DNA from: Actinophytocola oryzae | Lineage (GTDB): Bacteria > Actinomycetota > Actinomycetes > Mycobacteriales > Pseudonocardiaceae | Reading direction: 5' to 3' | DNA: 64,000 bases | NCBI RefSeq assembly: GCF_004364325.1 | Contig: NZ_SOCP01000016.1 | Span: 1-64,000 of the forward strand | Shown here: piece after piece, positions 1-24,119 of the stretch | Layout: each line of letters opens with the position of its first letter | Numbering within the stretch: position 1 is the first letter of the stretch | The notes under the pieces: generated by a model | The model's input: the letters and a program-made list of their open reading frames with translations, nothing else | Told to the model about the DNA's origin: nothing | Database searches by the model: none | Position numbers and translations under genes: made by a program

Positions 1-3000
1 CCCCGGCCGTGTCGTTCCACGACGCCAACAACCCACACTCGGACTCGCTCAACAGGTCCACACGACACACTGGGACGTCAGAATCGGCCGTGACGACCCG
101 CAGCAGCTGTGACCAGCGGCGCACGAGCGACTCGATGGTGCCCTGGTCGTACAGGTCGGTGGTGAAGGTGACCCGGCCGGTGATCCCGGCGGGACGGCCG
201 TCGGGGGCACGCCGTTCCCTGAGGTTGAAGGTCAGGTCGAAACGGGCGTTGGGGCGGGACAGGCGCTCCCGGGTGACGGTCAGCCCGGGCAGCTCGATCG
301 CGGTGTCCACGTTGTTCTGCAACACCAACATGACCTGGAACAACGGGTGATGCGCCAACGACCGGTGCGGGTTCAGCACGTCCACCAACCGCTCGAACGG
401 CACATCCTGATTGGCATACGCCGACAACGCCGTCTCCCGCACCCGACCCAGCAGCTCCGCGAACGACGGATCACCACCGGTATCCATCCGCAACACCAAC
501 GTGTTCACGAAGAACCCCACCAGGTCATCCAACGCCTCGTCGGTACGACCAGCCACCGGCGTGCCCACCGGGATGTCCGAGCCCGCACCCAACCTGCTCA
601 ACACCCCGGCCAAACCCGCCAGCAACACCATGAACACACTCGTCCCACTGCGGCGGGCGAGGTCGACGACGGCCTCGTGTGCGGCGGCGTCGAGCCGCAC
701 GTCCACGCTGCCACCCCGATGCGAGGCCACCACCGGGCGCGGCCGGTCGCCGGGCAGGCCGGCCTGTTCCGGCAGTCCTGCCAACGCCGTCGTCCAGTAG
801 TCGAGCTGACCGGCGACCTGGCTGTCCGAATCGGACAGATCGCCGAGCAGCTCCCGCTGCCACACCGCGTAGTCCGCGTACCGCACCGGCAACGGCGACC
901 AGTCCGGTGCCACACCGGCCACCCGCGCCGTGTAGGCCAGCGACAGGTCCCGCGACAACGGCGCCATCGACCAGCCGTCGGTCGCGGCGTGGTGTACCAC
1001 GAGCACGAGAACCCAGTCGCCCGTATCGGTCACGCGGAACAGTGACGCCCGTAGCGGCAGGTCCGCCGCGAGGTCGAACCGGTGGCCCACGACCTCGGTG
1101 ACCGCGGCCTCGAGCCTTCCGGAGTCCAGATCCGCGATCGGTAGGAACACCCGCACGCCATCCCGGATCGTCTGCGCGGGGTCGCCGTCGACGTCGGTGA
1201 ACGTGGTGCGCAGTGGTTCGTGCCGTGCCACGACGTCGTCCAGCGCCGACCGCAGCGACCCGACGTCGAGATCACCGGACATCCGCAGCACGAGCGGAAT
1301 GTTGTAGACCGGGTTCGGGCCCTCCAGCTGCTGAAGGAACCACAGCCGCTGCTGCGCGAACGACAGCGGAATCCGCTCGGGTGAGTCCACCGGCCGCAAA
1401 GCCGGGCGCACCAGGCCAGTGGCGTCGCGTACCCGTCGCGCCAGGCCCGCGACCGTGGGCGCCTCGAACACCGCCCGCACCGACAGCTCCACACCCATGA
1501 CCACACGCACCCGCGACACCAACCGCGTCGCCAACAGCGAATGCCCACCCAGATCGAAGAACCCGTCCGCCACACCGACCTCGGGCAACCCCAGCACCTC
1601 GGCGAACAACCCGCACAACAGCTCCTCCCGCGGATCCCGCGGGCCGCCGCCACTGCCGGCCTGTGCCGTGTAGTCCGGTGTGGGCAGTGCCCGGCGGTCG
1701 ACCTTGCCGTTGGCCGACAACGGAATTCGGTCCAGCGGCACGAACGCGGCGGGCACCAGGTAGTCCGGCAGGCGCTCACGCAGATACTCGCGCAGTTCGC
1801 CGGTCAGTCCGGTGGAGTCGCCGTGTGCGACCACATAGGCGACCAGCCGCGGCTCGCCGGGACGGTCCTCCCTGGCCACCACGACCGACTGCGCCGTCCT
1901 CGAATGCCCGGCGAGCACGGCCTCGACCTCGGCCGGTTCGACGCGAAACCCGCGGATCTTCACCTGGTCGTCGGTGCGCCCGAGGTACTCGAGGTTCCCG
2001 TCGTACCGCCACCGCACGACATCCCCGGTGCGGTACATCCGTTCACCGGCACCGAACGGGCAGGCCACGAACCGGTCCGCGGTCAGGCCGGGGCGGCGCA
2101 GGTAACCACGCGCCAGAGGTGTTCCGGCCAGGTACAGCTCCCCGGCCACACCGGGAGGAACCGGCCGCAGACGCCCGTCGAGCACGTAGACCCGCGTGTT
2201 GGTGATCGGTGCGCCGATCGGCGGTGCCTGTCCGTCCCCGTGCCCGCAGTCCCAGGCGGTGACGTCGATCGACGCCTCGGTCGGACCGTACAGGTTGTGC
2301 AGTCCGGCGGGCACCTTCGCGACGAACTCGTCCCGCAGGTCGCCGGACAGCGCCTCCCCGCTGCAGAACACCTGGCGCAGCGTCGGCACGGCCCCGGCGT
2401 CGAGGTTGCGGAGGAACTCCCGCAGCATCGAGGGGACGAAGTGGAGGATGGTGATCCGTTCCCGGCGGATGACGTCGACCAGGTACCCAGGCTCGCGGTG
2501 GCCGCCGGGCCGCGCCATGACGAGGGTGGCGCCGGAGGTCAGGGTGGCCAGGAACTCCCACACCGAGACGTCGAACCCGTACGGCGTCTTCTGGAGCACG
2601 CGGTCCGTGCCGGAGAAGCCGTACCGCCCGGTCATCCACGTGACCCGGTTGGCCAGGCCGGCATGGGTGACCACGGCACCCTTCGGCACGCCCGTCGTGC
2701 CCGACGTGTAGATCACGTACGCCGGGCCTGCCACGGTCAGCGGGCCGACGCGCTCCGCGTCCGTGACGTCGGTGCCGGACAGGCCGGCGGGTGCCGCGTG
2801 CACGTCCTCGGCCGTGACCACGCACACCGGCCGGGCGTCGGACTCCATGAACCGGACCCGTTCGGCCGGGTACTCCGGGTCGACCGGCACGTACGCGGCT
2901 CCCGACTTCAGCACGGCCAGGATCGCCACGACCATCTCGACGGACCGGGACAGCCGCAACGCGACCAGCCGCTCCGGCCCTGCCCCCCGGCCGATCAGGT

Positions 3001-6000
3001 GTCTCGCCAGCCGGTTGGCCCTCGCGTTCAGCTCGGCGTAGGTGACCGGTTCGCCGTCGGACACCACCGCCACCGCGTCGGGTGTCCGCGCCGCCTGCCG
3101 CTCGAACAACGCCGGCACCGGCACCACCGGCGGCTCACCCGCCGTGTCGTTCCAGTCGGCCAGCACCCGGCGGCGCTCGGCGTCGGACATCACGTCCACG
3201 CCGCCCGGACGGCGGCCCGTGTCGCCGGTCACCGCGTCCAGCAGCCGCAGCCACCGCGCCACCAGCGTCTCGACCGTGCCGCGGTCGTACAGGTCCGTGC
3301 TGTACTCGACCCGCCCGGACATCCCTGCCGGACCGCCGTCGGTGCCGCGGTGCTCCCGCAGGCTGAACGTCAGGTCGAACCGCGAGCCCCGGGCACGGAC
3401 CCGCTCGCGAACGGCCCGCACACCGGGCAGATCCAGCGTCACGTCCTCGTTGTTCTGCAACACCAGCATGATCTGGAACAGCGGGTGGTGCGCCAGTGAC
3501 CGCTGTGGGCTCACCACGTCCACGAGGCGTTCGAACGGCACGTCCTGGTTGGCGTAGGCCGACAGCGCCGTCTCCCGCACCCTCGCCACCAGCTCCGCGA
3601 AGGTCGGGTCGCCGCTGGTGTCGTTGCGCAGCACCAGCGTGTTGACGAAGAACCCCACCAGGGCGTCGAGTGACTCGTCGGTCCGGCCTGCGACCGGCAC
3701 GCCGACCGGGATGTCCGTGCCGGCACCCAGCCGTGTCAGCAGTCCCGCGAGTGCTGCCTGCAACACCATGAACACGCTGGCGCCGCAGTCACGGGCCACG
3801 TCCGCCACCTGTGCGTGCATGGCCGGGGTGAGGTCGAAACCGAGGCTCGCGCCCTCGTAGGTCGCGACCGAGGGCCTCGGCCGGTCGCCCGGCAGGCTGA
3901 CCTGTTCGGGTAGCCCGGCCAACGCGCTCGTCCAGTAGTCGAGCTGTCCGGCGATCCGACTGTCCGGATCGGACAGGTCGCCGAGCAGCTCCCGCTGCCA
4001 CACCGCGTAGTCCGCGTACTGCACCGGCAACGGCGGCCAGTCCGGCTCGGCGCCCGCGACCCTGGCCGCGTACGCCCGCGACAGGTCCCGCGACAACGGC
4101 GCCATCGACCAGCCGTCGGTCGCGACGTGGTGCACGACGAGCACGAAAACCCATCCGTCGCCGGTGCGGGACAGCGACGCCCGCACGGGCAGTTCGGTGG
4201 CGAGGTCGAAGCTGTGGTGCACGGCCTCGGCGACGAGGTCGGGCCCCCGGTCGTCCACGACCGGAACCGGCACAGTGACCTTCGCCAGGATCTGCTGCAC
4301 CGGCGTGCCATCGACCTCGGCGAGGACCGTACGCAACGGCTCGTGCCGATCGACGACGTCGTTCAGTGCCGCCGCGAAGGCGTCGGTGTCCAGGTCGCCG
4401 GTCATGCGGATCACCAGCGGGACGTTGTACAGCGGGTTCGGGCCCCGCAGGCGGTACAGGAACCACAGGCGCTGCTGCGCGAACGACAACGGCACCTGCC
4501 CGGGACGCGTGACCGGGGCCAGTGCCGGCCTGCGTACCCCCGCCGCTCGCCCTACCCGTCCGGCGAGACCGGCCACGGTCGGCGCCTCGAACACCGCCCG
4601 CACCGAAAGCTCCACGCCGAACACCGCACGCACCCGCGACACCAACCGCGTCGCCAGCAACGAATGCCCACCCAGGTCGAAGAAGCTGTCCGCCACCCCG
4701 ACCTCGGGCAGCCCCAGCACCTCGGCGAACAAGCCGCACAGCAGCTCCTCCTGCGGGTTGCGCGGCAGCATCCGGCCTGCCTCGGCGAACTCCGGTGCAG
4801 GCAGTGCGGCGCGGTCCACCTTCCCGCTCGACGTCAGGGGCAGGGCGGGAAGTGTCACGACAGCGGCAGGCACCAGGTAGTCGGGCAGCCGTTCCCGCAG
4901 GTACTCGCGCAGGTCGCCGAGAGGAGCGGCCGGAACGACGTAGGCGACCAGCTGGTGCTCGCCGGACCGGTCCTGCCTGGCGACCGCGGCGACGTGTGCC
5001 ACCGCCTCGTGCCTGGCGAGCACCACTTCCACCTCGGCGGGTTCCACCCGGACCCCGCGGATCTTCACCTGGTCGTCGGCCCGGCCCAGGTACTCGAGGT
5101 TCCCGTCGGCACGCCACCGCGCCACGTCACCGGTGCGGTACATCCGCTCACCCGAACCGAACGGGCACGCCACGAACCGGTTGGCCGTCAGCCTGACACG
5201 GCCGAGGTAGCCCCTGGCGACACCGGTACCGGCGACGTACAGCTCGCCGGAGACACCGGGTGGCACGAGCCGCAGGCGGTCGTCGAGGACGAACACCCGC
5301 ACGTTGTCCTGTGGCCTCCCGATCGGCACCGGCCGGCCGTCGCTGACCTCGCCGTCCGGGATCACGTAGTCCGTGCACCCGACCGTGGTCTCGGTGGGGC
5401 CGTAGTGGTTCACGACCGAGACACCGGGATGTGCCGCGCGCCAGCGGTCCAGGTCGGCGCCGCGTGCGGCCGAGCCGCCGACCATCAACTGTGACGTCGG
5501 CGCGACCTGGGCCGAGTGCTCGGTCATCGCGAACGCCAGGTGGGTCGGGGTCAGCTTCAGGAACGTGTAGGGGAGGCCGTGTCCGGCGGTCCGTTCGTCG
5601 AGGTCGCCGACATGCAGCAGCCCGCCGACGAGCAGCGGGCCGTACAGCGGCGGCACGGCGCCGTCGAACGTCACCGACGCGTGCAGCAGCGTCGCGCCGC
5701 CAAGGGCCGGGTACGCCGACCTGGCACGGACCAGGTAGTTGGTCAGCGACCGGTGCTCCACCACGACGCCCTTGGGGTGGCCGGTGGTGCCGGAGGTGTA
5801 GATGACGTAGGCGGGGTTGTGGGGTCGCAGCGGGCGGACCCGCTCGGCGTCGGTGATGTCGGCCGAGGAGTGACCCGTGGTGACCATGTCGTCCGGCGTG
5901 ACCACGCACACCGGTCGTGCGTCCTCGATCAGGAACCGGATCCGTTCGGCGGGGTGGTCCGGATCGATCGGCACGTAAGCAGCGCCCGCCTTGGCCACGG

Positions 6001-9000
6001 CCAGCAGCGCGACGATCAGCTCGGTCGACCTCGGCAGCGCGACCGCGACGTGGTCCTCGGGCCCGACGCCACGGGCGATGAGCTGCCGGGCGAACCGGTT
6101 CGCGCGGGCGTTGAGTTCGGTGTAGCTGACCGACTCGTTCCCGGACCGGACGGCGACGGCGTCCGGGGTCCGCTCGACCTGCTGTTCGAACAGTGCGGGC
6201 AGCGGCGAGGACGGTACCGCCGCCGCCGTGTCGTTCCACTGGGTCAGCAGCAGGTGGCGCTCGGCGTCGGTCAGCAGCGGGACGGCACCGAGCCGCTGGT
6301 CCGGCGCCGCGGTGACGCTGTCGAGAAGGCGCAGCCAGCGCCGCACCAGCGACTCGATCGTGCCCCGGTCGTAGAGGTCGGTGCTGTACTCGACCCGCCC
6401 GGTCATGCCCGCGGTGTCCGGCCGCTCGCGCACGCTGACCGTGAGATCGAACCGCGCGCTTCGTCCCAGCGCGCGTTCCCGAGTGGCACGAACACCGGGC
6501 AGTTCCAGGCTCGCCTCGACGTTGTTCTGCAACACCAGCATGACCTGGAACAACGGGTGGTGCGCCAACGACCGGTGCGGGTTCAGCACGTCCACCAACC
6601 GCTCGAACGGCACATCCTGATTGGCATACGCCGACAACGCCGTCTCCCGCACCCGACCCAGCAGCTCCGCGAACGACGGATCACCACCGGTATCCGTCCG
6701 CAACACCAACGTGTTCACGAAGAACCCGACCAGGTCATCCAACGCCTCGTCGGTACGACCAGCCACGGGCGAACCGATCGGCACGTCCGTGCCCGCCCCC
6801 GACCGCGTCAGCAACCCGGCCAAACCCGCCAGCAACACCATGAACACACTCGCGCCCGCGTCACGCGCCACCGCCACGATCCGCGCGTGCACCACCGGAT
6901 CGACCTCGAACCCGACCACGGCGCCGCGATGCGACGCCACGGCCGGACGAGGACGGTCACCCAGCAGGCTCACCTGCTCCGGCAACCCGGCGAGCCGGTG
7001 CGACCAGAACTCCACCTGCCGCGCCACCGCACTACCGGGATCGTCGAGACTCCCCAGCAGCTCCCGCTGCCACACCGCGTAGTCCGCGTACTGCACCGGC
7101 AACGGCGACCAACCCGGCGCCGCCCCAACGGCCCTGGCCGCATAGGCACGCGACAGGTCCCGCAACAACGGCGCCAACGACCAGCCATCGCCCGCGATGT
7201 GGTGCAACACCAGCACCAGCACGCATTCGTCTGCCGTGGCCCGCACCAGCGACGCCCGCAGCGGCGGCCCGGCCGCCAGGTCGAACGGATGCCACACCAC
7301 GTCGGCGACGGCGTCGGACACCCCGTCGGCGGCCACCTCCGCGATGGACATCTCGACGCCGCCACCGGCCGGCCGGATCCGCTGCATGGGGACGCCGTCG
7401 ACCTCGGTGTACACGGTGCGCAGCGCTTCGTGGCGGTCCACCACGTCCGCCAGGGCCGCTTTCAGCGCGTCCGGGTCAAGCTCCCCGGCTAGGCGCAGCA
7501 CCAGCGGCACGTTGTAGACGGGACTGGCACCCTCCAGCTGGTCGATGAACCACAGCCGCTGCTGCGCGAAGGACACCGGCAGGTACTCGGCACGCCGTAC
7601 CGGCCGCAGGACGGGCCTGCGGGCGTCGGACACGGCAGGCAACCGCCGGGCGAGCCCCGCCACCGTCGGCGACTCGAACACCGCACGCACCGGCAGCTCC
7701 ACGCCCAGCGCCGTGCGCAACCGGGACACGAGCCGGGTCGCCAGCAGCGAGTGCCCGCCCAGGTCGAAGAACCCGTCGTCGACACCGACCCCTGGCAACC
7801 CCAGCACCTCGGCGAACAGCCCGCACAGCAGCTCCTCCCGCTGGTCACGCGGAGCGCCGCCGCTGCCCGCGAGTGCCGCGAAGTCGGGTGCGGGCAACGC
7901 ACGCACGTCGATCTTGCCGACGGCCGTCAGCGGCATGGCCGCGAGCAGGACGATCGCCGACGGGACGAGGTAGTCCGGCAGCCGCTCCGCCAGGTGGTCG
8001 CGCAGCGGCGCCGGGTCCACCAGCTCCGGGTCCTCCGGCACGACGTAGGCGACGAGCCGCTGCTCACCCGGACGGTCCGCCCGTGCGGTGACCACGGCCT
8101 GCGCCACGAGGTGGTGCGCCGCGAGGACGGACTCGACCTCGCCCGGCTCGACGCGGAACCCGCGGATCTTGACCTGGTCGTCGGCCCGGCCCCGGTACTC
8201 GATCACCCCGTCCCGCCACCGCACCACGTCCCCGGTGCGGTACATCCGCTCCCCCGGACCGAACGGGCACGCCACGAACCGGTTCGCCGTCAGCCCGGCA
8301 CGGCCGAGGTAACCCCTGGCCACGCCGGTCCCGGCAACGTACAGCTCGCCGATCGCGCCGGGCGGCACCGGCCGCAGCCGGTCATCGAGCACGTAGGCCC
8401 GCATGTGGGTGATCGGGGCGCCGACCGGCACCGGGTCGGGCACCTCGTCCGGCGCCGCCATCGGATGGCTGGTGACGAACGTCGTGGTCTCGGTCGGACC
8501 GTACCCGTCGACCACGACGAGCCCCGGGCACGCCCGCAGGACCCGCCGGACCGCGCCCGCGGGCACGACGCCGCCACCCGCCCACACCTCCCGCAGCCCC
8601 GCGAAGCACTCCGGGTCCTCGTCCGCCAGCACCCGGAACAGGCCCGACGTCGCCCACATCGCCGTCACGCCGTGGTCGGCGACGGCACGCCGCACGGTCC
8701 GCGCGTCGACGTCGCCCGACGCGATGACCACCGTGCCGCCGGACAGCAGTGGCACCCACAGCTCGTAGGTCGACGCGTCGAACACGTACGGGGAGTGCAG
8801 CAGCACGCGCTCGTGCGCGCCGCCCGCGAAACAGGACGCCGACACCAGGCCGGCCACGTCCGCGTGCGTGACGACGACCCCTTTCGGCGCACCGGTCGTG
8901 CCCGAGGTGTACATGACGTAGGCCGTGTTTCCCGCGGTCGGCCGGGTGCGCCGTTCCCCGGGGGCCGCGCCGGGCAGGGCCGTGAGCTGGTCGAGCGCGT

Positions 9001-10960
9001 CGAGCACCAGTACCGGCCGCGCGTCGTCGATCATGAACCGGACGCGCTCGGCGGGATACGCGGGATCGATCGGCAGGTAGCCCGCGCCTGCCCTGAGCAC
9101 GGCGATGATCGCCACGACCATGTCCACCGAACGCGGCAACACCAGCGCCACCAGCCGCTCCGGTCCGGCGCCCCGGTCGGCCAACCGCCGGGCCAGCCGG
9201 CCGGCACGCGCGTTCAGCTCGGCGTAGGTGACCGATCCGCCGTCCCACTCGACGGCGACGGCGTCCGGCGTGGCGGCGGCCCGCTGCTCGAACAGCACCG
9301 GGAGCGGCAGTGTCGAGGGCGTGCCGGAGGTGACGTTCCACCCGGTCAGCACCTGGTGGCGTTCGGTGTCGGTGAGGATGTCCACATCGGCGACCCGGCG
9401 CCCGAGGTCGGCCGTCACCGCGTCCAGCAGCCGGACCCAGCGGTCGGCCAGTGCCACGACGGTCGCGTGGTCGTAGAGGTCCACGGCGTACTCCACGCGG
9501 CCGGTGCCGTCGTCGCGCACGGTGAAGGTGAGGTCGAACCGGGCGTTGCGCCCGGACACGCGGTCCCGCACGGCGGTGACGCCCGGCAGGTCGACCGTTG
9601 TCCCGGCGTTGTTCTGGAGCACCAGGGCGATCTGGAACAGCGGGTGGTGGGCCAGCGACCGGGCCGGGTTGAGCGCGTCCACGATCCGCTCGAACGGCAT
9701 GTCCTGGTGCGCGTAGGCGGCCAGTGCCGTCTCCCGCACCTGGGCCAGCAGGTCCGCGAACGTGGGGTCGCCCGAGGTGTCGGTCCGCAGGACCAGTGTG
9801 TTGACGAAGAACCCGACGAGGTCGTCCAGCGCCTCGTCGGCCCGGCCGGCCACCGGCGTGCCGATCGGGATGTCCGTCCCGGCGCCCAGCCGGGTCAGCA
9901 GTGCCGCCAGCGCGGCGTGCAGCACCATGAACACACTCGCCCTGGCCTCGCGGGCGACCCGGTCCACACGGGCGTAGAGCTCCGGGTCGATCTCGAATGC
10001 CACGGTGGCACCGCGATGCGACGCGACGGCGGGCCGCGGCCGGTCGCCCGGCAGGCCGACCTGGTCGGGCAGGCCTGCCAGCCGGGCGGACCAGTAGCCG
10101 ACCTGCCGGGCCGCGATGCTGTCCGGGTCGTCGAGGTCGCCGAGCAGTTCCCGTTGCCACGCCGCGTAGTCCGCGTACCGCACCGGCAGCGGCTGCCATG
10201 CCGGTGCGTTGCCCGCCAGCCGGGCGGTGTACGCCTCCGACAGGTCACGCGACAGCGGCGCCATCGACCAGCCGTCGCCGGCGATGTGGTGCATCAGCAC
10301 GGCCAGCACCCACGACCCGTCGTCGACGACCCGGCACAGCCAGGCTCGCAGCGGCGGCTCGGTGGCGAGGTCGAAGCAGTGCTCGACGACGCCGGAGAGC
10401 AGCCCCGGCAGCCGGTCCGACGCGGTGTCCACAAGGGACATCCGCACCGGGGTGTGGGCGGGCAGGATGCGTTGCACCGGAACGCCGTCCGACTCGCCGA
10501 ACACGGTCCGCAGTGCCTCGTGGCGCGCCATCACGTCGGACAGTGCCGCGCGCATGGCCGCCGGGTCGACCTCGCCCGCCAGCCGGAACACGATGGGAAG
10601 GTTGTAGACCGCGCTCGGTCCGTCCAGCTGGTGGAGGAACCACAGCCGCTGCTGGGCGAACGACACCGGCGCCGAGTCGCCGTGCGGTGTCGGGCGCAGC
10701 GGCGGTCGTACCGTGCCGGTGACCTCCTCGACCTCCCGGGCGAGGCCCGCCGCTGTCGGCGCCTCGAACACCGAGAGCACCGGCACCTCGATCCCCAGCA
10801 CCGCACGCATCCGCGACACCAGCCGCGTCGCCAGCAGCGAATGTCCGCCGAGTGCGAAGAAGTCGTCGGCAGGGGTCACGTGCGGCAGCCCGAGCACCTC
10901 GGCGAACAGCTCGCACAGCAGTTGTTCGTGTCGGCCACGATCAGCGGCACCGAGCACCAT
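1..10960 (-). CDS. Nonribosomal peptide synthetase, T-(C-A-T)x3-C..., 3' end outside window
   Basis: Multimodular NRPS, at least 3653 residues visible, open through the left edge. The ATG at 10960 is preceded by GGAGG 11 bases upstream, and the first carrier motif (LGGHSL, Ser41) follows at once, so the protein starts with a free-standing T domain. Approximate order by nucleotide: T0 10950-10720; C1 10690-9370 (HHIAGDG); A1 9330-7880; T1 7860-7640; C2 7600-6250 (HHIAGDG); A2 6220-4820; T2 4760-4570; C3 4510-3180 (HHVATDG); A3 3130-1690; T3 1650-1440; C4 1400-60 (HHAATDG). All C active sites and all TSGTTG loops are intact. No epimerisation, methylation or thioesterase domain is visible. Ten-residue pocket codes, aligned by eye to GrsA, are DAYWWGGTFK (valine-type), DGPKMGHVGK (nearest the Asp code DLTKVGHIGK) and DVWHFSLIDK (serine-type); the final Lys is assumed. 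Predicted chain: starter acid-Val-acidic residue-Ser-next. It is probably loaded by the ligase just upstream and helped by MbtH. Confidence 0.96.
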
Positions 10961-10997
10961 CTGTTGGCAACCCTCCAGGAATCGGCCGGCGTGTGCC

Positions 10998-12524
10998 TCA
11001 GCCGGCTGCGAGTTGGTCGGCGCAGAGCGCGGCGACGTCGGCGCGGCGCAGCTTGCCCTGCGGGCTGCGGGGCAGCGCGTCGACGACCAGGACCCGCTTC
11101 GGCACCTTGCTGGGGGTGAGCCGGTCGCGTGCGTAGCCGCGGACCTCGTCCGGTGTGGTGGCGTGGCCGTCCCGCAGCACGACGGCCGTGTGGACGTCCT
11201 CGCCGAGCAGCGCGTCGGGTGCGGCGAACGTCGCGCAGTCCACGACGTCCGGATGGCCGAGCAGCACGGAGTCCACCTCGGCCGGCGAGATCTTCTCACC
11301 GCCCCGGTTGATGATGTCCTTGATCCGCCCGGTGATCCACACGTAGCCGTCGGCGTCGACACGGCCGAGGTCGCCGGTGCGCAGCCATCCGTCGACGAAG
11401 GTGGCGTCCGGGTCCGGGTCGGCCCAGTAGCCGGTCATCACGTTCGGTCCCGCGATCAGCAGCTCGCCTTCGACGTCCGGCTCCCGCACGGGCCGTCCGG
11501 ACCGCTCGACCGCGACCTGCGATCCGGTGGCCACCCCGACGCTGCCCGGACGGCGCCGCCCGGGCGGCAGCGGGCTGGACGCGATCTGGTGTGCCTCGGT
11601 CATGCCGTAGGAGGTCACCACCGGCACGTCGAACGACCGCTCCACCCGTGCCAGCAGGTCCTCGGCCGCCGGGCCGGAGCCCGCCCTGATGAACCGGAGC
11701 GCCGGGCCCGGCACCAGGTCGTCCGGCGCGCTCGCGAGCAGCGCGGCCAGCATGGCGCTGCTACCGGAGTACCAGGTGACCCGGGGACCGGCGAGATGCG
11801 CCAGGACCAGGTCCGGGTCGAAGTGCGGCAGCACCAGGCACGACGATCCCGAGACCAGGGCCGCGACCACCGCACCCACCAGGCCCTGCACGTGGAACAA
11901 CGGCATGGCCGACAGCCGGCAGTCGGCAGGGCCGAGCCCGTAGGCCGTCGCGGTGGCCCTGGCCGCCGCGACGATGTTGTCCCGGGACAACTGCACGATC
12001 TTCGGACGGTCCGTGGAACCGGACGTGGCCAGCATCAGTCCGCGGTCGACGGCAGGCACGGGAGACGTCCTGCCACCCTCGCCCAGCGCGGCGCCGGTCA
12101 GCTCACCCCGTGCGGGCACGAGGTCGAACACCGGCAGCGACAGCTCGGCGCACACCGCGCGGAGCCGACCGCTGAGGCGACGCTGCAGCACCACCGCCCT
12201 CGGGGTCAGCAGCCGGAACAACCGCCGGTACTCGGCGGGTGCGAGCGTGGGGTTCAACGGCAGGCAGACCGCGACGTCGGTGACCGCCAGCATCGCGACC
12301 GCCGACACCGGTGCGTCCGGCAACGCGACGCAGACCACCTCCGACGGGCGGACCCCCAGGCGCACCAGGGAGTCCCGCAGTGCGCCGATCAACTCGCCGA
12401 CCTGGCCGTAGGTCACCGTCTCGCCCCGGTGGTCCATCAGTGCGGGACGGTCCCGCGCATCGCCTGCCGCTGTGCCTGCCGGCTCGGTCCAGTTCGTGGT
12501 GGTTCCGGACAGGTCCACCGTCAT
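10998..12524 (-). CDS. Stand-alone acyl-AMP ligase (ANL superfamily), probable starter-unit loader
   Basis: A 508-residue adenylate-forming enzyme. It shows the Ser/Gly-rich phosphate loop ([15 protein letters not shown], near residue 175), the YGMTEAH motif, the hinge segment [18 protein letters not shown] and the C-terminal catalytic Lys region [10 protein letters not shown]. The hinge and overall layout resemble oxalate/malonate or medium-chain acyl-CoA ligases more than amino-acid A domains: the A4/A5 pocket lacks the Asp235 that binds an alpha-amino group. It ends 37 bases before the NRPS, whose first domain is an unpaired carrier, so the likely role is to adenylate a carboxylic acid and load that carrier to start the peptide. 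An alternative is making an acyl-CoA. The start at 12524 has only a weak GGGGGTG ribosome site, and the gene lies 36 bases after the halogenase, so co-transcription is likely. Substrate cannot be read from the sequence. Confidence 0.9.
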
Positions 12525-12560: not shown

Positions 12561-14153
12561 TCACTTGCCGTGTAACTGGCGCAGGTAGTCGTAGCAGGTC
12601 GGCACCGTGTCCAGGATCCGACGTTGCTCCTGTTTGACTCGCGCGAACAGCGGCTCGGCCTGGTCGGCCAGTTCCGGTCGTGCGGCCAGCATCGGCAGCG
12701 AGTGGTCCGGCAGGAAGTCCAGACCGGCCAGGATGCAGTAGTAGTTGCTGTTGCTCCAGAAGTTGCGGAACTCCGCCTCGAAGTTGTCGTAGTAGGTCTC
12801 CTCGCCGACCACCGGCATGCTGACCGGCAGTCCCGCCCGGTACATGGCGACCTTCTCGGCGATGGCGTCGGCGAGCGGGAGTTCCTTGCAGGCACGCCAG
12901 AACGGTGTGTCGTCCCGTGGCGCGAACGTGAAGTGGGCCTGCACGAAGTCCCGCGAGTCGTCGAACATCACCTCGATCTCGCGGTTGAACCGGTCACGCA
13001 TGACCGGCTCGAAGTTCTTGTCCGGGAAGTGTTTCACCAGCTGGTAGAGCGCGGCGTAGGCGAAGTAGATGCCCGTCGACTCCAGCGGTTCCAGGAAGCA
13101 GGACGCCAGGCCGACACTGACGACGTTGCGCACCCATGCCCGGCGGTTGCGGCCGACCCGGAACCGGATCTGGTTGAGCGTCTGCTCTTCCGGGTCGAGG
13201 CCCCACATCCGGCAGAACTCCAGGGTCGCCTCGTCCTGGTTGGCGAACCGGCTGGAGTAGACGTAGCCGCTGCCGAAACGGCCGAGCATCGGGATCTTCC
13301 AGGTCCAGCCCGACGACATCGCGATCGACGACGTGTACGGCTCGACGCCGTGCGCCTCGTCGTCGTGGGGGACGGCGGTCGCCACGGCACGGTCGTTGAG
13401 CAGGTGGTCGCTCATGTCCAGGAACGGCTCGCGCATCGCCTGGTTGATCAGCAACCCGCGGAATCCGGAGCAGTCGACGAACAGGTCGCCCTCGATCAGG
13501 CGGCCACCCTGGGTCCGCAGGCCCGTCACGTGGCCGCGCTGGTCGAGGACCGCCTCGGTCATCATGTCCTCGATGTGCACCGCGCCCTGTTTGTCCACGG
13601 CGAACTGGCGCAGGTAGTCGGCGACCAGCTGAGCGTCGAAGTGCCACGCGTAGTTGGTCCACCGGGTGCCGTCGGCGTTGCGGGGCGCCAGGTTCGCGTC
13701 CAGCGCGGGCGCCTGCGGGTAGCACGCCCGGTCGAACCGCTCAGCTGTCTCGCCTGCGAGTGCGCGGTGCGTCCAGTAGTGCGACAGCGGCAGGTTCTGG
13801 TAGGTGGGCAGCAGGCCGAACAGGTGGTAGAACTCGTCCGGCGCACCACTTCGCTGTCGTGACGTCGCCTCGCCCGCGCCGGGCGTGCGCCAGTTCACGT
13901 ACTTGATGCCCATCTTGAAGCTGGCGTTGCACGCCCGCATCCAGTCGTCCTCCGGCACGCCGAGGAAGTCGAACAACACCCTGTGCAGGTTCGGGATGGT
14001 CGCCTCACCCACCCCGATCCTCGGCACGGCAGGCGACTCCAGCACCGTGACCGACACCTGCTGACCGAGCGCCCGGCCGAGGTAGGCGGCACTCATCCAG
14101 CCCGCGGTCCCGCCACCGAGCACGACGATCTTCCGGATTCTGCGGTCGCCCAC
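12561..14153 (-). CDS. FAD-dependent tryptophan halogenase (RebH/PrnA type)
   Basis: 530 residues, the length of RebH. It carries the FAD motif GGGTAGWM (13-20), the flavin-halogenase signature SGWTWKIP, the catalytic Lys80 in FKMGIKY (PrnA Lys79) and the Glu of PLESTGIYF (PrnA Glu346). Family knowledge: FADH2 and O2 form HOCl, which travels to the Lys, and free tryptophan is halogenated. The overall sequence looks closer to the tryptophan 7-halogenases RebH, PrnA and KtzQ than to 5- or 6-halogenases, but regiochemistry is inferred. No flavin reductase, the usual partner, is visible in the window. Start is GTG at 14153 with AGGGGG 8 bases upstream. It is the first gene of the halogenase-ligase-NRPS run, so chlorotryptophan or a derivative is probably a building block. 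None of the three visible A domains has a tryptophan-like code. Confidence 0.96.
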
Positions 14154-14628: not shown

Positions 14629-15288
14629 TCAGTCCCGGCGGGCGGCGACCAGCTGGGTCGCGGCGACGCTGAGGGCCATCAGCACGACGGCCACGGCCGC
14701 GTACCCGGTCGCGGAGGCCACGGTGTCACCGGTGACCGATCCGTTGCGGGTCAACAGTGTCATCGCCGGGTTGACGGGTGGGATCCACCGCACCAGTACG
14801 AACAACAGCAACAGCAACAGTGTCGTCAGCAGGCCGTAGCCGGGACGGCGGATCATCAGCCGGGAGGTAACCAGGCCGATCGCGACACCGACGCAGGCGC
14901 CGGTGAGCAGGGCTTCCGCCCCGGCGAACAACTCCAACCCGGTCACGTCGCGGAACCCGAAAACCAGCGGCACAGCGAGCAGGAGCGCACTCAGCACGGC
15001 ACAGCACGCGAGCACGACCCACGCCGTGGCGATCAGCAGCGAGCGCGACCGGCCCGCGTTCACCGCCGTGATGGTGCGCTGCACCGGATCCTCCACACCG
15101 ATCAGCGACACCGTCAGCCATGCCGCGAGCACCAGGGTGGCCACGGTCATCACACCGAAGATCGGCGCCACGGGCTGCGCATTGTCCCCATGCACCAGCA
15201 ACATCGCCACCACGCAGTACAACAACGTCGGCGGCAGGTAGCGCTGGGAGTGCAGCAGGATGGCCAGCGTGTAGCGGAACAACGCCAT
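14629..15288 (-). CDS. ABC transporter permease, ABC-2-like
   Basis: A 219-residue integral membrane protein with about six hydrophobic segments, for example around residues 15-35, 45-65, 85-110 and 160-180. Its ATG overlaps the stop of the preceding ATPase by one base (TGATG), so the two are translationally coupled and should form one transporter. The chosen start (MALFRYTLA) is this overlapping ATG; longer readings extend into the ATPase. Its place between MbtH/ATPase and the halogenase suggests export of, or self-resistance to, the peptide made by the NRPS. That role is inferred from position, because half-transporters of this kind are not diagnostic by sequence. Confidence 0.82.
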   Translation of the reverse strand: MALFRYTLAILLHSQRYLPPTLLYCVVAMLLVHGDNAQPVAPIFGVMTVATLVLAAWLTVSLIGVEDPVQRTITAVNAGRSRSLLIATAWVVLACCAVLSALLLAVPLVFGFRDVTGLELFAGAEALLTGACVGVAIGLVTSRLMIRRPGYGLLTTLLLLLLFVLVRWIPPVNPAMTLLTRNGSVTGDTVASATGYAAVAVVLMALSVAATQLVAARRD

Positions 15289-16172
15289 CACCGGACTTCT
15301 CCGGCATCGCCGTCGGACGCGGCCGTGATCCGTTCCGCCACGGCCTCGTCCACCCGCGCGACCGACCAACCATGTCGCAGGGCGGCCAGCAGCAGGCCGT
15401 CGGCGTCCGGTTTGCCCACCCGCACCAGGACGCGATCGCCTTCCCAGCGCGTGGAAATCGCCGACGCCAGCACGGCCTCGACATCATCGCGCGGCCAGCC
15501 GTCGACGCCGGACGGCGCCTCCAGCACCAGCCGCACCACCAGCGTCGCCTGCACCGCCTCGACATCGCCGGGGCGGACTCTGCCGTGGTCGATCCGGTAG
15601 ACACGTGTCGCGTTCGTCCGGACTGTCGCCTCGCGATGGTCGGTGAACACGACGGTGCCGCCGTTCGCGGCACACTCCGCCATCACCTCGGCGAGCACAC
15701 CGTGTGCCGAGCGGTCCAGGCCCGACCAGGGCTCGTCCAGCACCAGTAGTTCCGGTGGCACGACCAACGCCTGCGCCAGCCCCACCTTCTGCAGGTTTCC
15801 CTTGGACAGCCGGCGAAGCGCGGTGTCGAACCCGCCCGCGAGCGCGAACCGGTCCAGCAGTCGCTCGGCCGCGCGGCCGGCCTCCCGGCCGGAAAGCCCG
15901 CGGATCCGCCCCATGTGGGTCAGGTACGAACGCGCGGTCAGCCGCTCGTCGGACGGAAACCGTTCCGGCACATAGCCGACGCGTGCCGGCCGACCCGTGA
16001 CCGTGCCCGACGTCGGGCGGGTGACGCCGACGAGAATGCGCAGCAGCGTCGACTTGCCGGACCCGTTGCCGCCCGCGATCGCGGTGATGTCACCGGACTC
16101 GAGGTCCATGACCACATCGGAAAGCACCGTGCGGTCCCGGCCATAACGCTTGCTGACATCGCTCACTCGCAC
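15288..16172 (-). CDS. ABC transporter ATP-binding protein
   Basis: 294 residues with Walker A GGNGSGKST (about residues 34-42), the signature LSKGN, Walker B LLVLDEP and an H-loop region TDHRE. The signature is LSKGN rather than LSGGQ, as in several ABC-2-type exporters. After the nucleotide-binding domain comes an extension of about 90 residues without a clear motif. GTG start at 16172, with GAGG about 10 bases upstream. It is coupled to the downstream permease (TGATG overlap) and lies about 150 bases after MbtH on the same strand. Probable role: energising export of the cluster product. Confidence 0.9.
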   Translation of the reverse strand: MRVSDVSKRYGRDRTVLSDVVMDLESGDITAIAGGNGSGKSTLLRILVGVTRPTSGTVTGRPARVGYVPERFPSDERLTARSYLTHMGRIRGLSGREAGRAAERLLDRFALAGGFDTALRRLSKGNLQKVGLAQALVVPPELLVLDEPWSGLDRSAHGVLAEVMAECAANGGTVVFTDHREATVRTNATRVYRIDHGRVRPGDVEAVQATLVVRLVLEAPSGVDGWPRDDVEAVLASAISTRWEGDRVLVRVGKPDADGLLLAALRHGWSVARVDEAVAERITAASDGDAGEVR

Positions 16173-16321: not shown

Positions 16322-16555
16322 TCAGCTGCCGGAACGGCGGACCGCGTCGGCCTCCATCGCCTCGACGAGACTTCTTGGCCGCATGTCGGTCCAATGGGTC
16401 TCGACGTAGGCCAAACAGGTTTCGCGGTCACTCTCGGGCAGTTCGACTGTCCAACCCGGCGGCACGTCGGCGAAGCTGGGCCAGAGCGAGTACTGCCGCT
16501 CGTCGTTGGCCAGCACGAGAAAACGACCGTTTTCGTCATCGAACGGATTGCTCAT
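16322..16555 (-). CDS. MbtH-family NRPS accessory protein
   Basis: 77 residues beginning [12 protein letters not shown], with the family core: [10 protein letters not shown], the P-x-GW segment (VPPGWTVE), the CLAYVE region and a C-terminal TDMRPRSL. MbtH proteins bind adenylation domains and are often needed for their folding and activity, so this one probably serves the NRPS in this window. ATG at 16555 with AGGGG six bases upstream (GGGAGGGGAACCC). It is the first minus-strand gene of the cluster and is divergent from the PLP enzyme at 16717. Length and motifs match the family fully. Confidence 0.97.
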
Positions 16556-16716
16556 GGGTTCCCCTCCCAGGACGCCCGAACGCGATCCAGTCTGGCGTCG
16601 CGGGCCACCCACGACAACCACCCAAGGCAACTGTGACGACTATCACAACAAGTCCGGCGCATTCGTAAAAACGGACTTTCGATTGTTCCGGGCCACCGCA
16701 CGATTCGACCGAATGT
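16556..16716. promoter_or_regulatory. Divergent promoter region, mbtH / PLP enzyme
   Basis: 161 bases between divergent starts. The middle, 16630-16720, is lower in GC than the surroundings. It should carry promoters for both transcripts; I could not assign individual -10/-35 boxes or an operator with confidence. Confidence 0.4.
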
Positions 16717-18069
16717 ATGCTTGTCGTGAACTCGCATCCACTGGCCCCTTCATTCGCCACCCCCACCGCACGAAGGGTCCGTGCCTTGTTGAGCGTTGCC
16801 GAAACCAGTTCACATTACGTACTGCTGTGCCCCGTCTGCGGTTGGCGGGGTCCCGACGACGGTCTCCGGCTCGAATGCCCGCAACCGCACGCGCCGGGAC
16901 TGCTCCAGGTCGTGTACGCCACGAACGCCTTTCCCCGGCCACGCGGCGACGACGGTCTCTTCCGGTATCGCGACTGGCTCCCGGTCCGCAGAACGCTGAC
17001 CGGCGCCGTCCGGCCGGAGGTGTACCACGGTGCGGCGCTCGGCAGACGGCTCGGCCTGCCGAACCTGTGGATCGCGTTCAACGGCTACTGGCCGGAACGC
17101 GGGTGCGCGATGACAACGTCGACGTTCAAGGAACTCGAGGCGTACACGGCACTGGGCAGGCTGCCGCACGACGCGCCGACGCTGGTGGTGTCGTCGGCCG
17201 GGAACACGGCCGCCGCGTTCGCCGCGCTGGCATCCCGGTACGAGATGCCGTGCGTGATCGTCGTGCCCGCGGCGGCCACGGACCGGCTGATGTTCCAGCG
17301 GCCACTCGCCCCGTGCGTCCGGCTCGTCATGCTGGAACACGGCGACTACACCGATGCCATCGCCTTCGGCCAGTCCCTCGCGACGGCACTCGACGGGCAG
17401 GTGGAGGGCGGCGCGAAGAACGTGGCACGGCGCGCGGGCCTCGCGACGGTGTTGCTGGCCGCCGCGGAGGCGATGCCGGTCCTGCCGGACTACTACGTCC
17501 AGGCGGTCGGCAGTGGCGCGGGCGCGATCGCGGTGCACGAGGCGGCCCGCAGGCTGGTCGCCGCGGGCACGGCCGATCGGGTGCCGAAGTTGCTGCTGTG
17601 CCAGAACGAGTCGTTCGCGCCGCTCCACGACGCCTGGCGGCGCGAACGCGACGGCCGCGAGTGGCCACGCCCGACGGGGACCGCCGTCTTCGCGGACGAG
17701 CTGGTGAACCGCCTGCCACCGTACGGAGTCCTGGGCGGCGTGCGTGACTGCCTGCTGGAAAGTGACGGCGACATGCTCGTCGCGGACCGGCCCGCCGCAC
17801 TCGCGGCCCGGCGGTTGTTCCAGGACGTCGAGGGAATCGACATCGAACCGGCCGCGGCGGTCGCACTCGCGTGCCTGTGCGAAGCCGCCGCGACCGGCAT
17901 GGTCGACCGTGACGCGACACTGTTGTTGAACGTCACCGGCGGCGGTCGCCGCAGACTGGCCGAGACGACACCGCTCAGGCCGCCGGATCAGGTATTTTCT
18001 GTGTCACAGAACGACTTGCGCGACGGCACATTCCCTCGGGAACTGCTCCGGGCCCGCGCACTCAGCTGA
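16717..18069 (+). CDS. Threonine synthase/cysteate synthase-like PLP enzyme
   Basis: 450 residues, fold-type II PLP enzyme. Visible: an N-terminal cysteine-containing segment (CPVCGW then LECPQPH), an FNGYWP segment, the putative PLP lysine in TSTFKELEAY, the SSAGNTAAAFAAL phosphate/cofactor motif, AVGSGAGAI, and a C-terminal VTGGGRRR. Threonine synthases convert O-phosphohomoserine; cysteate synthases use O-phosphoserine and sulfite. The TFKELEA and FNGYWP features look to me more like cysteate synthase than housekeeping threonine synthase, a judgement from memory of the families. It is divergent from mbtH, so it probably makes a non-standard amino acid for the NRPS. The ATG at 16717 has no ribosome site; a TTG at 16786 or 16789 with AAGGG 8-11 bases upstream may be the true start, just before the conserved AETSSHYVLLCPVCG. 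Confidence 0.85.
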   Translation: MLVVNSHPLAPSFATPTARRVRALLSVAETSSHYVLLCPVCGWRGPDDGLRLECPQPHAPGLLQVVYATNAFPRPRGDDGLFRYRDWLPVRRTLTGAVRPEVYHGAALGRRLGLPNLWIAFNGYWPERGCAMTTSTFKELEAYTALGRLPHDAPTLVVSSAGNTAAAFAALASRYEMPCVIVVPAAATDRLMFQRPLAPCVRLVMLEHGDYTDAIAFGQSLATALDGQVEGGAKNVARRAGLATVLLAAAEAMPVLPDYYVQAVGSGAGAIAVHEAARRLVAAGTADRVPKLLLCQNESFAPLHDAWRRERDGREWPRPTGTAVFADELVNRLPPYGVLGGVRDCLLESDGDMLVADRPAALAARRLFQDVEGIDIEPAAAVALACLCEAAATGMVDRDATLLLNVTGGGRRRLAETTPLRPPDQVFSVSQNDLRDGTFPRELLRARALS

Positions 18070-19520: not shown

Positions 19521-20377
19521 GAGTGGGTGACCTCCGGTTCGAACTCGCCCACCAGCAGCAGGTACGCGTCCTCCAGTGTCGGTGGGATCAGCTCGGCGCC
19601 CCGGGGTGGGTCGCCGACATTGCGGTAGGCGCCGTCACCGGTGCGCCACGCCGCGAGCGCGGCAGGCGAGCGCCGTGTGTCCGTCCACACGCGACCTTCG
19701 GCCCGCGCCGTCAGCTCCGCCGGAGTACCGGCGAACCGGGCCCGGCCCTGGTGGATCACGGCGATCCTGGTGCACAGCGCGGTGATGTCCTCGGTCTGGT
19801 GGCTGGACATGACCACCGTGCGCCCCTCGCCCGCCTGGGAGATCATCTCCCGGAACCGCAGCCGCTGCTCCGGGTCGAGGCCGACCGTCGGCTCGTCGAG
19901 GACGAGCAGGTCGGGATCGCCCAGCATGGCCTGCGCCAGGCCGACACGCCTGCGCATGCCGCCGGACAGGGCCCGGATCCGCTTCGCGCTGACGGACTCC
20001 AGCCCGGTCAGCGCGATGACCCGGCGGACCTCGTCGTGCCGGGGCCGCCGGTCGGTCATCTCCTTCAGGATCGCCACGTAGTCGACGAACTCGAAGACGG
20101 TGAAGCCCCGGTGGAAGCCCGCGTCCTGGGGCAGGTAGCCGAGGCGTTCGCGGATCCTGGTGCGGTCGTCGGGGCGCGACGGATCGCGGCCCAGCAGGGT
20201 CACCGTGCCCCGGTCCGGCGCCAGTACGGTGGCGATCGTGCGGAGCAGGGTCGTCTTGCCCGCCCCGTTCGGACCGAGCAGTCCGGTCACCCCGGGGTCG
20301 GCTTCGAGGTCGACGCTGTCCAGTGCCGTCGTGCGGCCGAAGGACTTGGTCGCGCCGCGCACACTCACCGTGGTCAT
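19517..20377 (-). CDS. ABC transporter ATP-binding protein
   Basis: 286 residues. Walker A GPNGAGKTT (about 40-48), Q-loop YLPQDAGF, signature LSGGMRRR, Walker B LLVLDEPTVGLDP and switch His in MSSHQTEDI, all intact; layout as in ABC-2/drug-resistance-type ATPases. ATG at 20377 shares ATGA with the upstream anti-sigma gene, and its stop shares ATGA with the downstream permease. The operon order sigma factor, anti-sigma, ATPase, two permeases suggests the transporter output is controlled by the ECF sigma factor. Confidence 0.93.
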   Translation of the reverse strand: MTTVSVRGATKSFGRTTALDSVDLEADPGVTGLLGPNGAGKTTLLRTIATVLAPDRGTVTLLGRDPSRPDDRTRIRERLGYLPQDAGFHRGFTVFEFVDYVAILKEMTDRRPRHDEVRRVIALTGLESVSAKRIRALSGGMRRRVGLAQAMLGDPDLLVLDEPTVGLDPEQRLRFREMISQAGEGRTVVMSSHQTEDITALCTRIAVIHQGRARFAGTPAELTARAEGRVWTDTRRSPAALAAWRTGDGAYRNVGDPPRGAELIPPTLEDAYLLLVGEFEPEVTHS

Positions 20378-21192
20378 GCGTTTCTCCCCAGCCTGATCGT
20401 GAAGGTGTCGCGGGTGACGGCGAGCCAGGTGGCGGCGCCGACGGCCACGGCGAGCCAGAAGACCTGGGCGCCGCCGCCGAAGGCGAGGTCGAGGTGACCC
20501 GCGATGGTGGTCGGTGCGGTCAGCAGCGTCCAGGCCGTGGCCACGACGCCGACCGCGACGACAGGCGTCACGCGGGCGGACAGGGCCAGCGCGGCGCAGG
20601 TGAGCCCGGCGGTGGGCAGTAGCCAGGCGGCAGGCCAGTTCGGGCCGGGTAACGCGAACCCGGCGGCGGCCACGATCGGCACCGTCACGGTCAGGACGGC
20701 GACCGTTCGGACCAGCAGCAGTCGCAGCCCCGGGTACGGGGCGGCGAGGCCGATCTCCCTGGTCGGGTCGAGGCCGCCTGCGAAGGCCACCGCGACACCG
20801 GCCAGCGGCCCGAGCGGGGCGACCACGAGAAACCGCTCCGGGAGACGCTCGTCGACCTGGGCCGCCCACGCAGCGAGCGCGAGCACCCCCGCGACGGCCA
20901 GCAGCCACGGCCCTCGCAGGGTCGGCGTCGCGGCGACGAGGCGTGCCGTGGCCTCGCCGACGCCGAGCCGGGTCAGCATCCGTTCGAGCCCGCGCAGGCG
21001 GGGTGCGTCGACCCGGTCGACCACCTCGTGCCAGATCGCCTCGGCCCGCCCGACGTCCACGTGGGACGAGATCGCGCCCCGGCAGGCCGCGCACCTCATC
21101 AGGTGCGCCTCGACGGACGCGGCCAGATCCGGCGGGGCGTCCCCCCGCGAGTACCGGCGGATCGCCTCCGGATCCAGGTGCCAGACGGTCAT
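20374..21192 (-). CDS. Membrane anti-sigma factor with zinc-finger (ZAS-like) N-terminus
   Basis: 272 residues. The N-terminal 45 residues carry the HxxxCxxC arrangement of ZAS anti-sigma domains (VEAHLMRCAACRG, residues about 27-39). Six or so membrane segments follow from about residue 95 to the end. The gene starts 13 bases after the stop of an ECF sigma factor and overlaps the ABC ATPase. Likely role: holds the sigma factor at the membrane and releases it on a signal sensed in or at the membrane. Having many membrane helices rather than one is less usual for this class; the C-terminal part could instead function with the transporter. Confidence 0.82.
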   Translation of the reverse strand: MTVWHLDPEAIRRYSRGDAPPDLAASVEAHLMRCAACRGAISSHVDVGRAEAIWHEVVDRVDAPRLRGLERMLTRLGVGEATARLVAATPTLRGPWLLAVAGVLALAAWAAQVDERLPERFLVVAPLGPLAGVAVAFAGGLDPTREIGLAAPYPGLRLLLVRTVAVLTVTVPIVAAAGFALPGPNWPAAWLLPTAGLTCAALALSARVTPVVAVGVVATAWTLLTAPTTIAGHLDLAFGGGAQVFWLAVAVGAATWLAVTRDTFTIRLGRNA

Positions 21193-21205
21193 GCCGACCT
21201 CCCCG

Positions 21206-21745
21206 TCATGCCAGCCGCTCCCGCAACAGGGCGCGGGCGCGCATCATCCGTGTCTTGACCGTGCCGGGCGGGATGCCCAGCAGCCGGGCGGCCTCCCGGG
21301 TCGTCAGTCCGTCGAGGACAGTGGCCTGCACGACGGCACGCAGCTCCGGTGACAGGCTCGTGAGTGCCGCGCCGAGGTCGCCGTACTGGACGGCGAGCAG
21401 CACGTGCTCCTCGGCCGAGTTCTCGACGCCCGCGAACCTCGTCAGCTCGTCGACGGGCGGACGGCTGCGACGCAGCGCGTCGACCAGACGACGGATGCCG
21501 ATCCCCCAGATCCACGCGGCGACCTCGCCCCGGCGATCCCACCGCCCGGCCGACCGCCAGACCGCCACGAACGTGTCCTGCACGACCTCGTCGACGATCT
21601 CCGGCGACGAGCACCGCCGCCCCAGGCGCACCAACAGCCACGGCAGGTGCCGCCGGTACAGCTCGGCGAACGCCGCCCGGTCACCGTCGGTGATCGCCGC
21701 GAGGAGCTGGGCGTCCTCTCGCGGGTCCGGCGGCCCTGTCAGCAT
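21206..21745 (-). CDS. ECF-type RNA polymerase sigma factor
   Basis: 179 residues with sigma region 2 (FAELYRRHLPWLL, then VDEVVQDTFVAVWR and AAWIWGIGIRRLVDALRR) and region 4 (LSPELRAVVQATVLDGLTTREAARLLGIPPGTVKTR, helix-turn-helix). Length is standard for ECF sigma factors without extra domains. First gene of a five-gene operon with the anti-sigma factor and an ABC transporter, so auto-regulation of this operon is likely. ATG at 21745; the ribosome site is weak. Only 50 bases separate it from the MMPL gene upstream on the same strand, so the promoter must be short or shared. Confidence 0.95.
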   Translation of the reverse strand: MLTGPPDPREDAQLLAAITDGDRAAFAELYRRHLPWLLVRLGRRCSSPEIVDEVVQDTFVAVWRSAGRWDRRGEVAAWIWGIGIRRLVDALRRSRPPVDELTRFAGVENSAEEHVLLAVQYGDLGAALTSLSPELRAVVQATVLDGLTTREAARLLGIPPGTVKTRMMRARALLRERLA

Positions 21746-21795
21746 GCGTAGCTACCATCCATGCCCTGTTCGTCGCACCGAGCGGGGCAAACGGT

Positions 21796-23916: not shown

Positions 23917-24119
23917 CGGCAACTCCTGTCGGGCGGTCGACCGCGTACCTGGTGACGGTCGCGGAGGTAGCGAGCACCGTAGCGGAGGCCGTGCCCGCGT
24001 CGGAGTTGCCGACCTGATTTCGTGGTGCCCGCTTCGCTCCTCGCCGATACTTCGCCTTTCGACACGGCTCGCGACGCGTGACGGGGCACCTGCCGCAGGC
24101 CAGACAGTGGGGAGAACCG

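Follow-up and report, generated by a model that had tools for sequence, protein, structure and literature searches.

Predicted cysteate synthase and cysteate-linked adenylation domains in a ten-module peptide synthetase cluster of Actinophytocola oryzae

We analyzed the first 64 kb (the window) of contig C16 (NZ_SOCP01000016.1) of the 10.7 Mb genome of Actinophytocola oryzae. The window carries a nonribosomal peptide synthetase (NRPS) gene whose second adenylation (A) domain, A2, has an aspartate-like pocket, and a gene encoding a pyridoxal phosphate (PLP) enzyme close to it. Our analysis suggests, with a probability of roughly 0.6, that the window covers the 5' portion of an NRPS cluster with ten modules that would make a sulfonated peptide, with A2 and two later domains, A4 and A10, loading cysteate (cysteic acid, Cya). 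This reading rests on the family assignment of the PLP enzyme, on the clade in which A2 falls and on the joint occurrence of such A domains and cysteate synthase genes in other genomes.

The A2 pocket and the neighboring cysteate synthase

A minus-strand open frame (2-11362, 3787 aa) leaves the contig at its start and contains three complete A domains. The Pfam scan of this gene, NRPS gene 1, gave 4 condensation (C), 3 A and 4 thiolation (T) domains in the order T0-C-A1-T-C-A2-T-C-A3-T-C, and the three copies each of PF00501 and PF13193 place its A domains in the expected family. Its start is probably the ATG at 10960, which has GGAGGG in front and comes just after a ligase gene. Pocket codes were read by alignment to GrsA PheA, and the GrsA control code, DAWTIAAIC, was correctly recovered. 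This alignment gave DGPKMGHVG for A2, so the code and location proposed in the first-pass annotation were right. The core motifs A3, A5, A7 and A8 of this domain are intact, with K517 present in the A10 motif SSGKVDR.

With aspartate-activating domains of the DLTKMGHVG and DLTKVGHIG type, A2 has D235, K278, G301, H322 and G331 in common, as had been claimed. The three replaced pocket residues also proved correct when compared with DLTKVGHIG (236 Leu to Gly, 239 Thr to Pro, 299 Val to Met), and position 330 shows a conservative Ile to Val change. Whereas the aspartate-activating type combines Leu or Met236 with Thr239 and K278, A2 keeps the lysine and has Gly236 and Pro239; A4 and A10 have Ala236. 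A2 falls instead into what we call the cysteate-linked group (K278, a residue other than Leu or Met at 236 and a synthase in the genome), a grouping introduced in this work rather than a published family. The earlier view of these changes as divergence does not hold for position 236, since loss of Leu is common to the cysteate-linked domains; the Gly236/Pro239 pair is unique to A2. In the A-domain tree, A2 belongs to a six-member clade (SH-aLRT, the Shimodaira-Hasegawa-like approximate likelihood ratio test, 99) made up solely of domains of its own cluster family, including A4, A10 and other DATKMGHVG domains, and the synthase is present in the clusters that carry these DATKMGHVG domains.

It had further been proposed that the neighboring PLP gene, described as threonine/cysteate synthase-like, could make cysteic acid, and the sequence evidence bears this out. 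The protein scored 383.1 bits against the TIGR03844 cysteate synthase equivalog, above the cut-off of 324.9, and the best threonine synthase model gave 66.6 bits for a cut-off of 303. Its closest solved relative is recorded as "Cysteate synthase" (PDB 9k3c, E 1.6e-90), with threonine synthases at 5e-14 or worse. The PLP-lysine motif TFKELEA and the motifs SAGNTA and TGGGRRR are kept. In a tree of 48 proteins it groups with the proteins of S. dioscori, S. specialis and genome G122, and the threonine synthase-like paralogues of the host (L005-L007) lie outside the synthase branch. Family scores and tree thus rule out a threonine synthase, and the enzyme, judged by its sequence, very probably makes cysteate. 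Its gene lies ~10 kb from A2 in the same cluster, adjoining genes for an MbtH-like protein and an ATP-binding cassette (ABC) transporter. The methanogen cysteate synthase, which serves coenzyme M biosynthesis (Graham 2009, cited in PMC12713407), belongs to the same family over the curated cut-off and has the FKELEA/FKDLES PLP-lysine and SAGNTA motifs in common with the actinobacterial proteins, but the latter form a separate branch and are found mostly in NRPS clusters.

Related enzymes were also seen outside this setting. At a different place, the host genome encodes a second and divergent enzyme of this PLP superfamily (L005, G000:C7:234907-236028; 115 bits to TIGR03844, under the cut-off); it lies in an 896-aa frame, with NRPS condensation domains alongside. 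Cysteate synthases with high scores of 450-467 bits occur in Acidobacteria and a cyanobacterium (L016, 1173-11203; L019, 3119-11236; L017, 10001-11161). At the two Acidobacteria loci an NRPS is close to the synthase, and the A codes there (DPWYIGSIA, DLYNNALTY, DIWEITADD) are without K278, so cysteate may be used by another route in these bacteria. Small genes of acyltransferase-like and carrier-like type flank the cysteate synthase gene of a Saccharothrix locus (L011, 10052-11350), and the stretches read there showed no NRPS A domain. In G713, a genome of the host family, no A domain was found in the 75 kb around the synthase (L182), a provisional result, as the scan may not have covered these stretches. 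The L011 and G713 enzymes may belong to a different cysteate pathway.

Co-occurrence with the synthase and position 236

A GTDB scan with the synthase returned 32 loci encoding relatives, ten of them actinobacterial, and 8/10 actinobacterial synthase genomes carry an A domain with the code DATKMGHVG, DITKMGHVG or DATKMGHVA. We built a pocket search profile from six such domains, counting matches >220 bits as strong. Among 393 Streptomyces genomes, 24 have the cysteate synthase and 16 have a strong profile match; each of these 16 is a synthase carrier (Fisher p 6e-23, kinship not corrected). Other synthase genomes have DATKMGHVG (G129), DATKIGAVN (G036), DATKVGAVN (G358 and G365) or DSTKIGHVG (G316 and G361). 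One of the codes D[A/I]TKMGHVG, DATKIGAVN, DATKVGAVN or DSTKIGHVG is therefore present in 22 of the 24 synthase genomes, mostly in the synthase's own cluster, a count that is asymmetric because the extra six were found by reading near the synthase or among weaker matches and the synthase-free matches were read in part. The codes read in synthase-free genomes were of the form D[L/M]TK..., with two exceptions. In the order to which A. oryzae belongs (379 genomes), the synthase was found only in the host and G713, and no match >184 bits was found outside the host; Leu236 occurs in every code read there.

The genes also cluster physically. At loci L013, L018 and L037 the synthase is immediately in front of the NRPS gene, with an overlap of 4 bp in L037, and in the window, S. 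dioscori, S. specialis and G122 it occurs together with MbtH and ABC transporter genes. The Kitasatospora clusters L064 (in G007) and L066 and L067 (both in G008) contain two DATKM-type domains each and codes resembling those for dihydroxyphenylglycine and hydroxyphenylglycine, and a chalcone synthase-like gene (L014) was seen with these clusters, which suggests dihydroxyphenylglycine-cysteate peptides.

The residue at position 236 is Ala, Ser, Ile or Gly in the synthase clusters and Leu or Met in Asp/Asn domains elsewhere. After clustering at 70% identity, 8/10 clusters without Leu or Met at this position were synthase-linked, against 8/30 clusters with Leu or Met (p 0.007). When all profile columns of 46 representatives were ranked by mutual information with synthase presence, position 236 came second, after a column two residues before K278, and no other pocket position was in the top 20. 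On the tree, residues other than Leu or Met at 236 require five changes, of which the starred branches force two. In G358 and G365 (L124, L121) one NRPS cluster has sister domains with the codes DATKVGAVN and DLTKVGAVN, which differ at 236 alone and form a natural test pair for a switch at this position. From these comparisons, position 236 appears to mark cysteate chemistry; the known geometry of A-domain pockets suggests that a smaller residue here enlarges the pocket for the sulfonate.

The joined assembly line, known cysteate peptides and alternative substrates

Overlaps of 95 bp connect the start of C16 with the right end of contig C40, and the left end of C40 with the left end of contig C7; such shared contig ends are a typical assembler trace of a collapsed repeat. 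The overlaps give the predicted order C16-C40-C7. A direct C16-C7 join was ruled out, as the one alternative pairing of these ends would join C40 to itself, which is impossible. C40 and C7 add A4 (DATKMGHVG), A5 (DVQFIAHVA, Pro-type), A6 (DAATVVGVG), A7 (DIWTLGGVG), A8 (DAYWWGGTF), A9 (DALLIGAVV) and A10 (DATKMGHVG), the last followed by a T domain and a thioesterase. Condensation-family matches of lower score after A8 and A9 look like epimerization domains, and ~450 bases of A domain are missing at each junction, as estimated from module spacing. The joined line thus has ten modules, three of them (A2, A4 and A10) of one related acidic type, and the two sister domains on C40 and C7 rule out A2 as the sole cysteate module. 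The relative G122, a complete chromosome, has the same core (Ser, DATKMGHVG, Pro-type, DAATV., DIWTLGGVG, DAYWWGGTF, DAL...) with a single acidic module versus three in the window line; the halogenase and stand-alone ligase of the window were not found in the G122 stretches read.

Cysteate loaded by an NRPS is known from the clusters for cysteoamide of Streptomyces lincolnensis (Wang 2018, doi 10.1021/acs.joc.8b00044) and for JBIR-78/JBIR-95 (Takeda 2017, doi 10.1021/acschembio.7b00314). Cysteoamide consists of phenylacetate, Val, cysteate, Thr, beta-hydroxyleucine and beta-alanine, and JBIR-78/95 begin with phenylacetyl-CoA (coenzyme A) and L-Val. In the L013, L018 and L037 clusters the synthase adjoins an NRPS in which a Val-type domain precedes a DATKMGHVG domain, with a Thr-type domain next in the two that were read further (G006, G013); the codes of L013 are, in order, DAYWWGGTF, DATKMGHVG and DFWNVGMVH (Thr-type). 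As these clusters match cysteoamide, DATKMGHVG was taken as a cysteate code. The code of A1, DAYWWGGTF, also fills the Val position in cysteoamide-type clusters, and A1 is presumably Val-type. L013 in addition contains 2-oxoacid dehydrogenase E1-alpha and E1-beta/E2 fusion genes, and no such pair was recognized beside the window NRPS.

Features that set the A. oryzae line apart from the cysteoamide and JBIR-78 lines are its ten modules, a T0 probably loaded by the ligase, a tryptophan halogenase and the three acidic domains belonging to the cysteate clade. Its order (T0, Val-type, A2, Ser-type, A4 on C40, Pro-type and so on) is unlike theirs, and it does not have the combination of Val-Cya-Thr order and acyl-CoA-using starter C domain that marks that family. 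In the discodermin cluster dsc of 'Entotheonella monilis', which makes a different peptide, an A domain predicted to be aspartate-specific matches Cya in the product, and the authors report finding no cysteate biosynthesis gene (PMC12858407). The first-pass annotation had considered that a sulfonated peptide with chlorotryptophan would be novel. Cysteate peptides of actinobacteria as such are already known, given cysteoamide and the Cya enzymes described before, but the arrangement looks new, with up to three cysteates and a Trp-6/7-type halogenase in one line. No paper pairing cysteic acid with chlorotryptophan was found in the literature searched. The position-236 signature also looks new.

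Several points weigh against cysteate as the substrate of A2 and against the role of position 236. The association concerns the A-domain type, mostly through DATKMGHVG, and not A2's own code; G387 (DITKMGHVG) and G349 (DITKIAHCG) are the exceptions that have no synthase; and the p values overstate significance, as they ignore shared ancestry. The independent-contrast test had two starred-branch pairs only, a number at which significance is out of reach. The match of L013-type clusters to cysteoamide, on which the cysteate code depends, is a presumptive assignment by cluster comparison. Finally, the exact Gly236/Pro239 pair was found in no other domain; A2 may accordingly be weakly active or may have shifted to a different substrate.

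If A2 activated L-aspartate and only A4 and A10 took cysteate, the peptide would have two cysteates and one Asp. A2 does retain K278, H322 and G331 of the Asp pocket, does not follow the cysteate consensus at positions 236 and 239 and has the longest branch of its clade (0.58), and the related G358 and G365 clusters mix cysteate-like with Asp/Asn-like domains. However, it has not regained Leu236 but has the even smaller Gly, and the tree unites it with A4 and A10, which have the code DATKMGHVG and belong to the same NRPS; these points make aspartate an unlikely substrate. A move to an acid with a larger side chain, such as beta-hydroxy-Asp, O-phosphoserine or another sulfonate, through the space at Gly236 and a turn at Pro239, is more doubtful still: the pair occurs in no other K278-type domain read, but neither a hydroxylase gene nor any other tailoring gene for a residue of this kind was recognized in 1-24000, where some genes have no assignment. 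That the synthase works in a separate pathway (coenzyme M-like or for a sulfonolipid) and is next to the NRPS by chance is highly improbable, as the coenzyme M role in methanogens and the L011 and (provisionally) G713 synthases without a nearby A domain are outweighed by its recurrent place with MbtH and ABC genes, the gene overlap in L037 and the very strong genome-wide co-occurrence with the DATKMGHVG type.

The earlier idea that A2 could accept cysteate is thus well supported as a hypothesis, and A2 probably uses it. It is the least certain of the three candidate sites, its sister domains having the consensus DATKMGHVG, and it is highly probable from their codes that at least one of A4 and A10 uses cysteate.

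Neighboring genes and proposed pathway

The other genes of the cluster are listed in Table 1. The ligase, halogenase, ABC pair and MbtH genes are upstream of the NRPS on the same strand, and the PLP gene diverges from them. The ligase, from its position, probably loads a starter onto T0. The nearest solved relative of the halogenase is of the Thal type, a tryptophan 6-halogenase (6ib5, 836 bits, full length), and the Trp-7 enzyme RebH is nearly equal (816 bits), scores too close to fix the ring position. An extracytoplasmic function (ECF) sigma factor gene adjoining those for a zinc-finger anti-sigma-like protein and an MMPL transporter (20374-23922) is found just past the likely cluster edge.

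Table 1. Features of the cluster within the window
Feature	Position	Strand	Evidence or remark
NRPS gene 1, 5' part cut by contig end, continues on C40	1..10960	-	Open frame, Pfam, ATG and GGAGGG, 95-bp overlaps
A3 domain, code DVWHFSLID, Ser-type	1667..2990	-	Ser call by established codes
A2 domain, code DGPKMGHVG(K), probable cysteate-activating	4787..6220	-	Pocket alignment; clade SH-aLRT 99
A2 pocket region, motif A3 to after A5, used in search profile	5366..5782	-	
A1 domain, code DAYWWGGTF, Val-type	7880..9200	-	GrsA PheA alignment
Stand-alone AMP ligase, oxalate/fatty acid-CoA ligase-like	10998..12524	-	PF00501, PF13193; nearest solved relative oxalyl-CoA synthetase
Flavin-dependent tryptophan halogenase	12561..14153	-	PF04820, 544 bits, full-length family match
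Putative ABC transporter membrane protein	14629..15369	-	No Pfam match; next to ABC ATPase also in L009, L104, L008
ABC transporter ATPase	15288..16172	-	PF00005; orthologues in L008, L009, L104
MbtH-like protein	16322..16630	-	PF03621
Predicted cysteate synthase, PLP, O-phosphoserine + sulfite to L-cysteate	16717..18069	+	TIGR03844, PDB 9k3c, motifs, tree

From the computed genes, codes, domain and contig order, A2 clade and association, we infer the following model, which covers the substrates used, what residue 236 does, the choice of starter, where Trp is placed and what is made. The synthase would form L-cysteate from O-phosphoserine and sulfite, and A4, A10 and probably A2 would adenylate it, assisted by the MbtH-like protein, for loading at positions 2, 4 and 10. 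D235 would hold the amino group and K278 and H322 the acid, as in the Asp-type pocket, and the change of Leu236 to Ala or Gly would make room for the larger sulfonate. The stand-alone ligase would charge T0 with the starter, the halogenase would supply chlorotryptophan, perhaps for A9, and the thioesterase encoded on C7 would release or cyclize the peptide. In full, a single NRPS line incorporating three cysteic acids and a chlorinated Trp, with 236 as an Asp-to-cysteate switch that evolved more than once, is a tentative proposal.

Specificity predictors may call such domains aspartate, as with the Cya module of discodermin, and cysteate peptides may therefore be overlooked. If the model holds, a single position, 236, reporting cysteate would allow sulfonated peptides to be found from genomes, and multiply sulfonated, chlorinated peptides would represent an unusual chemotype.

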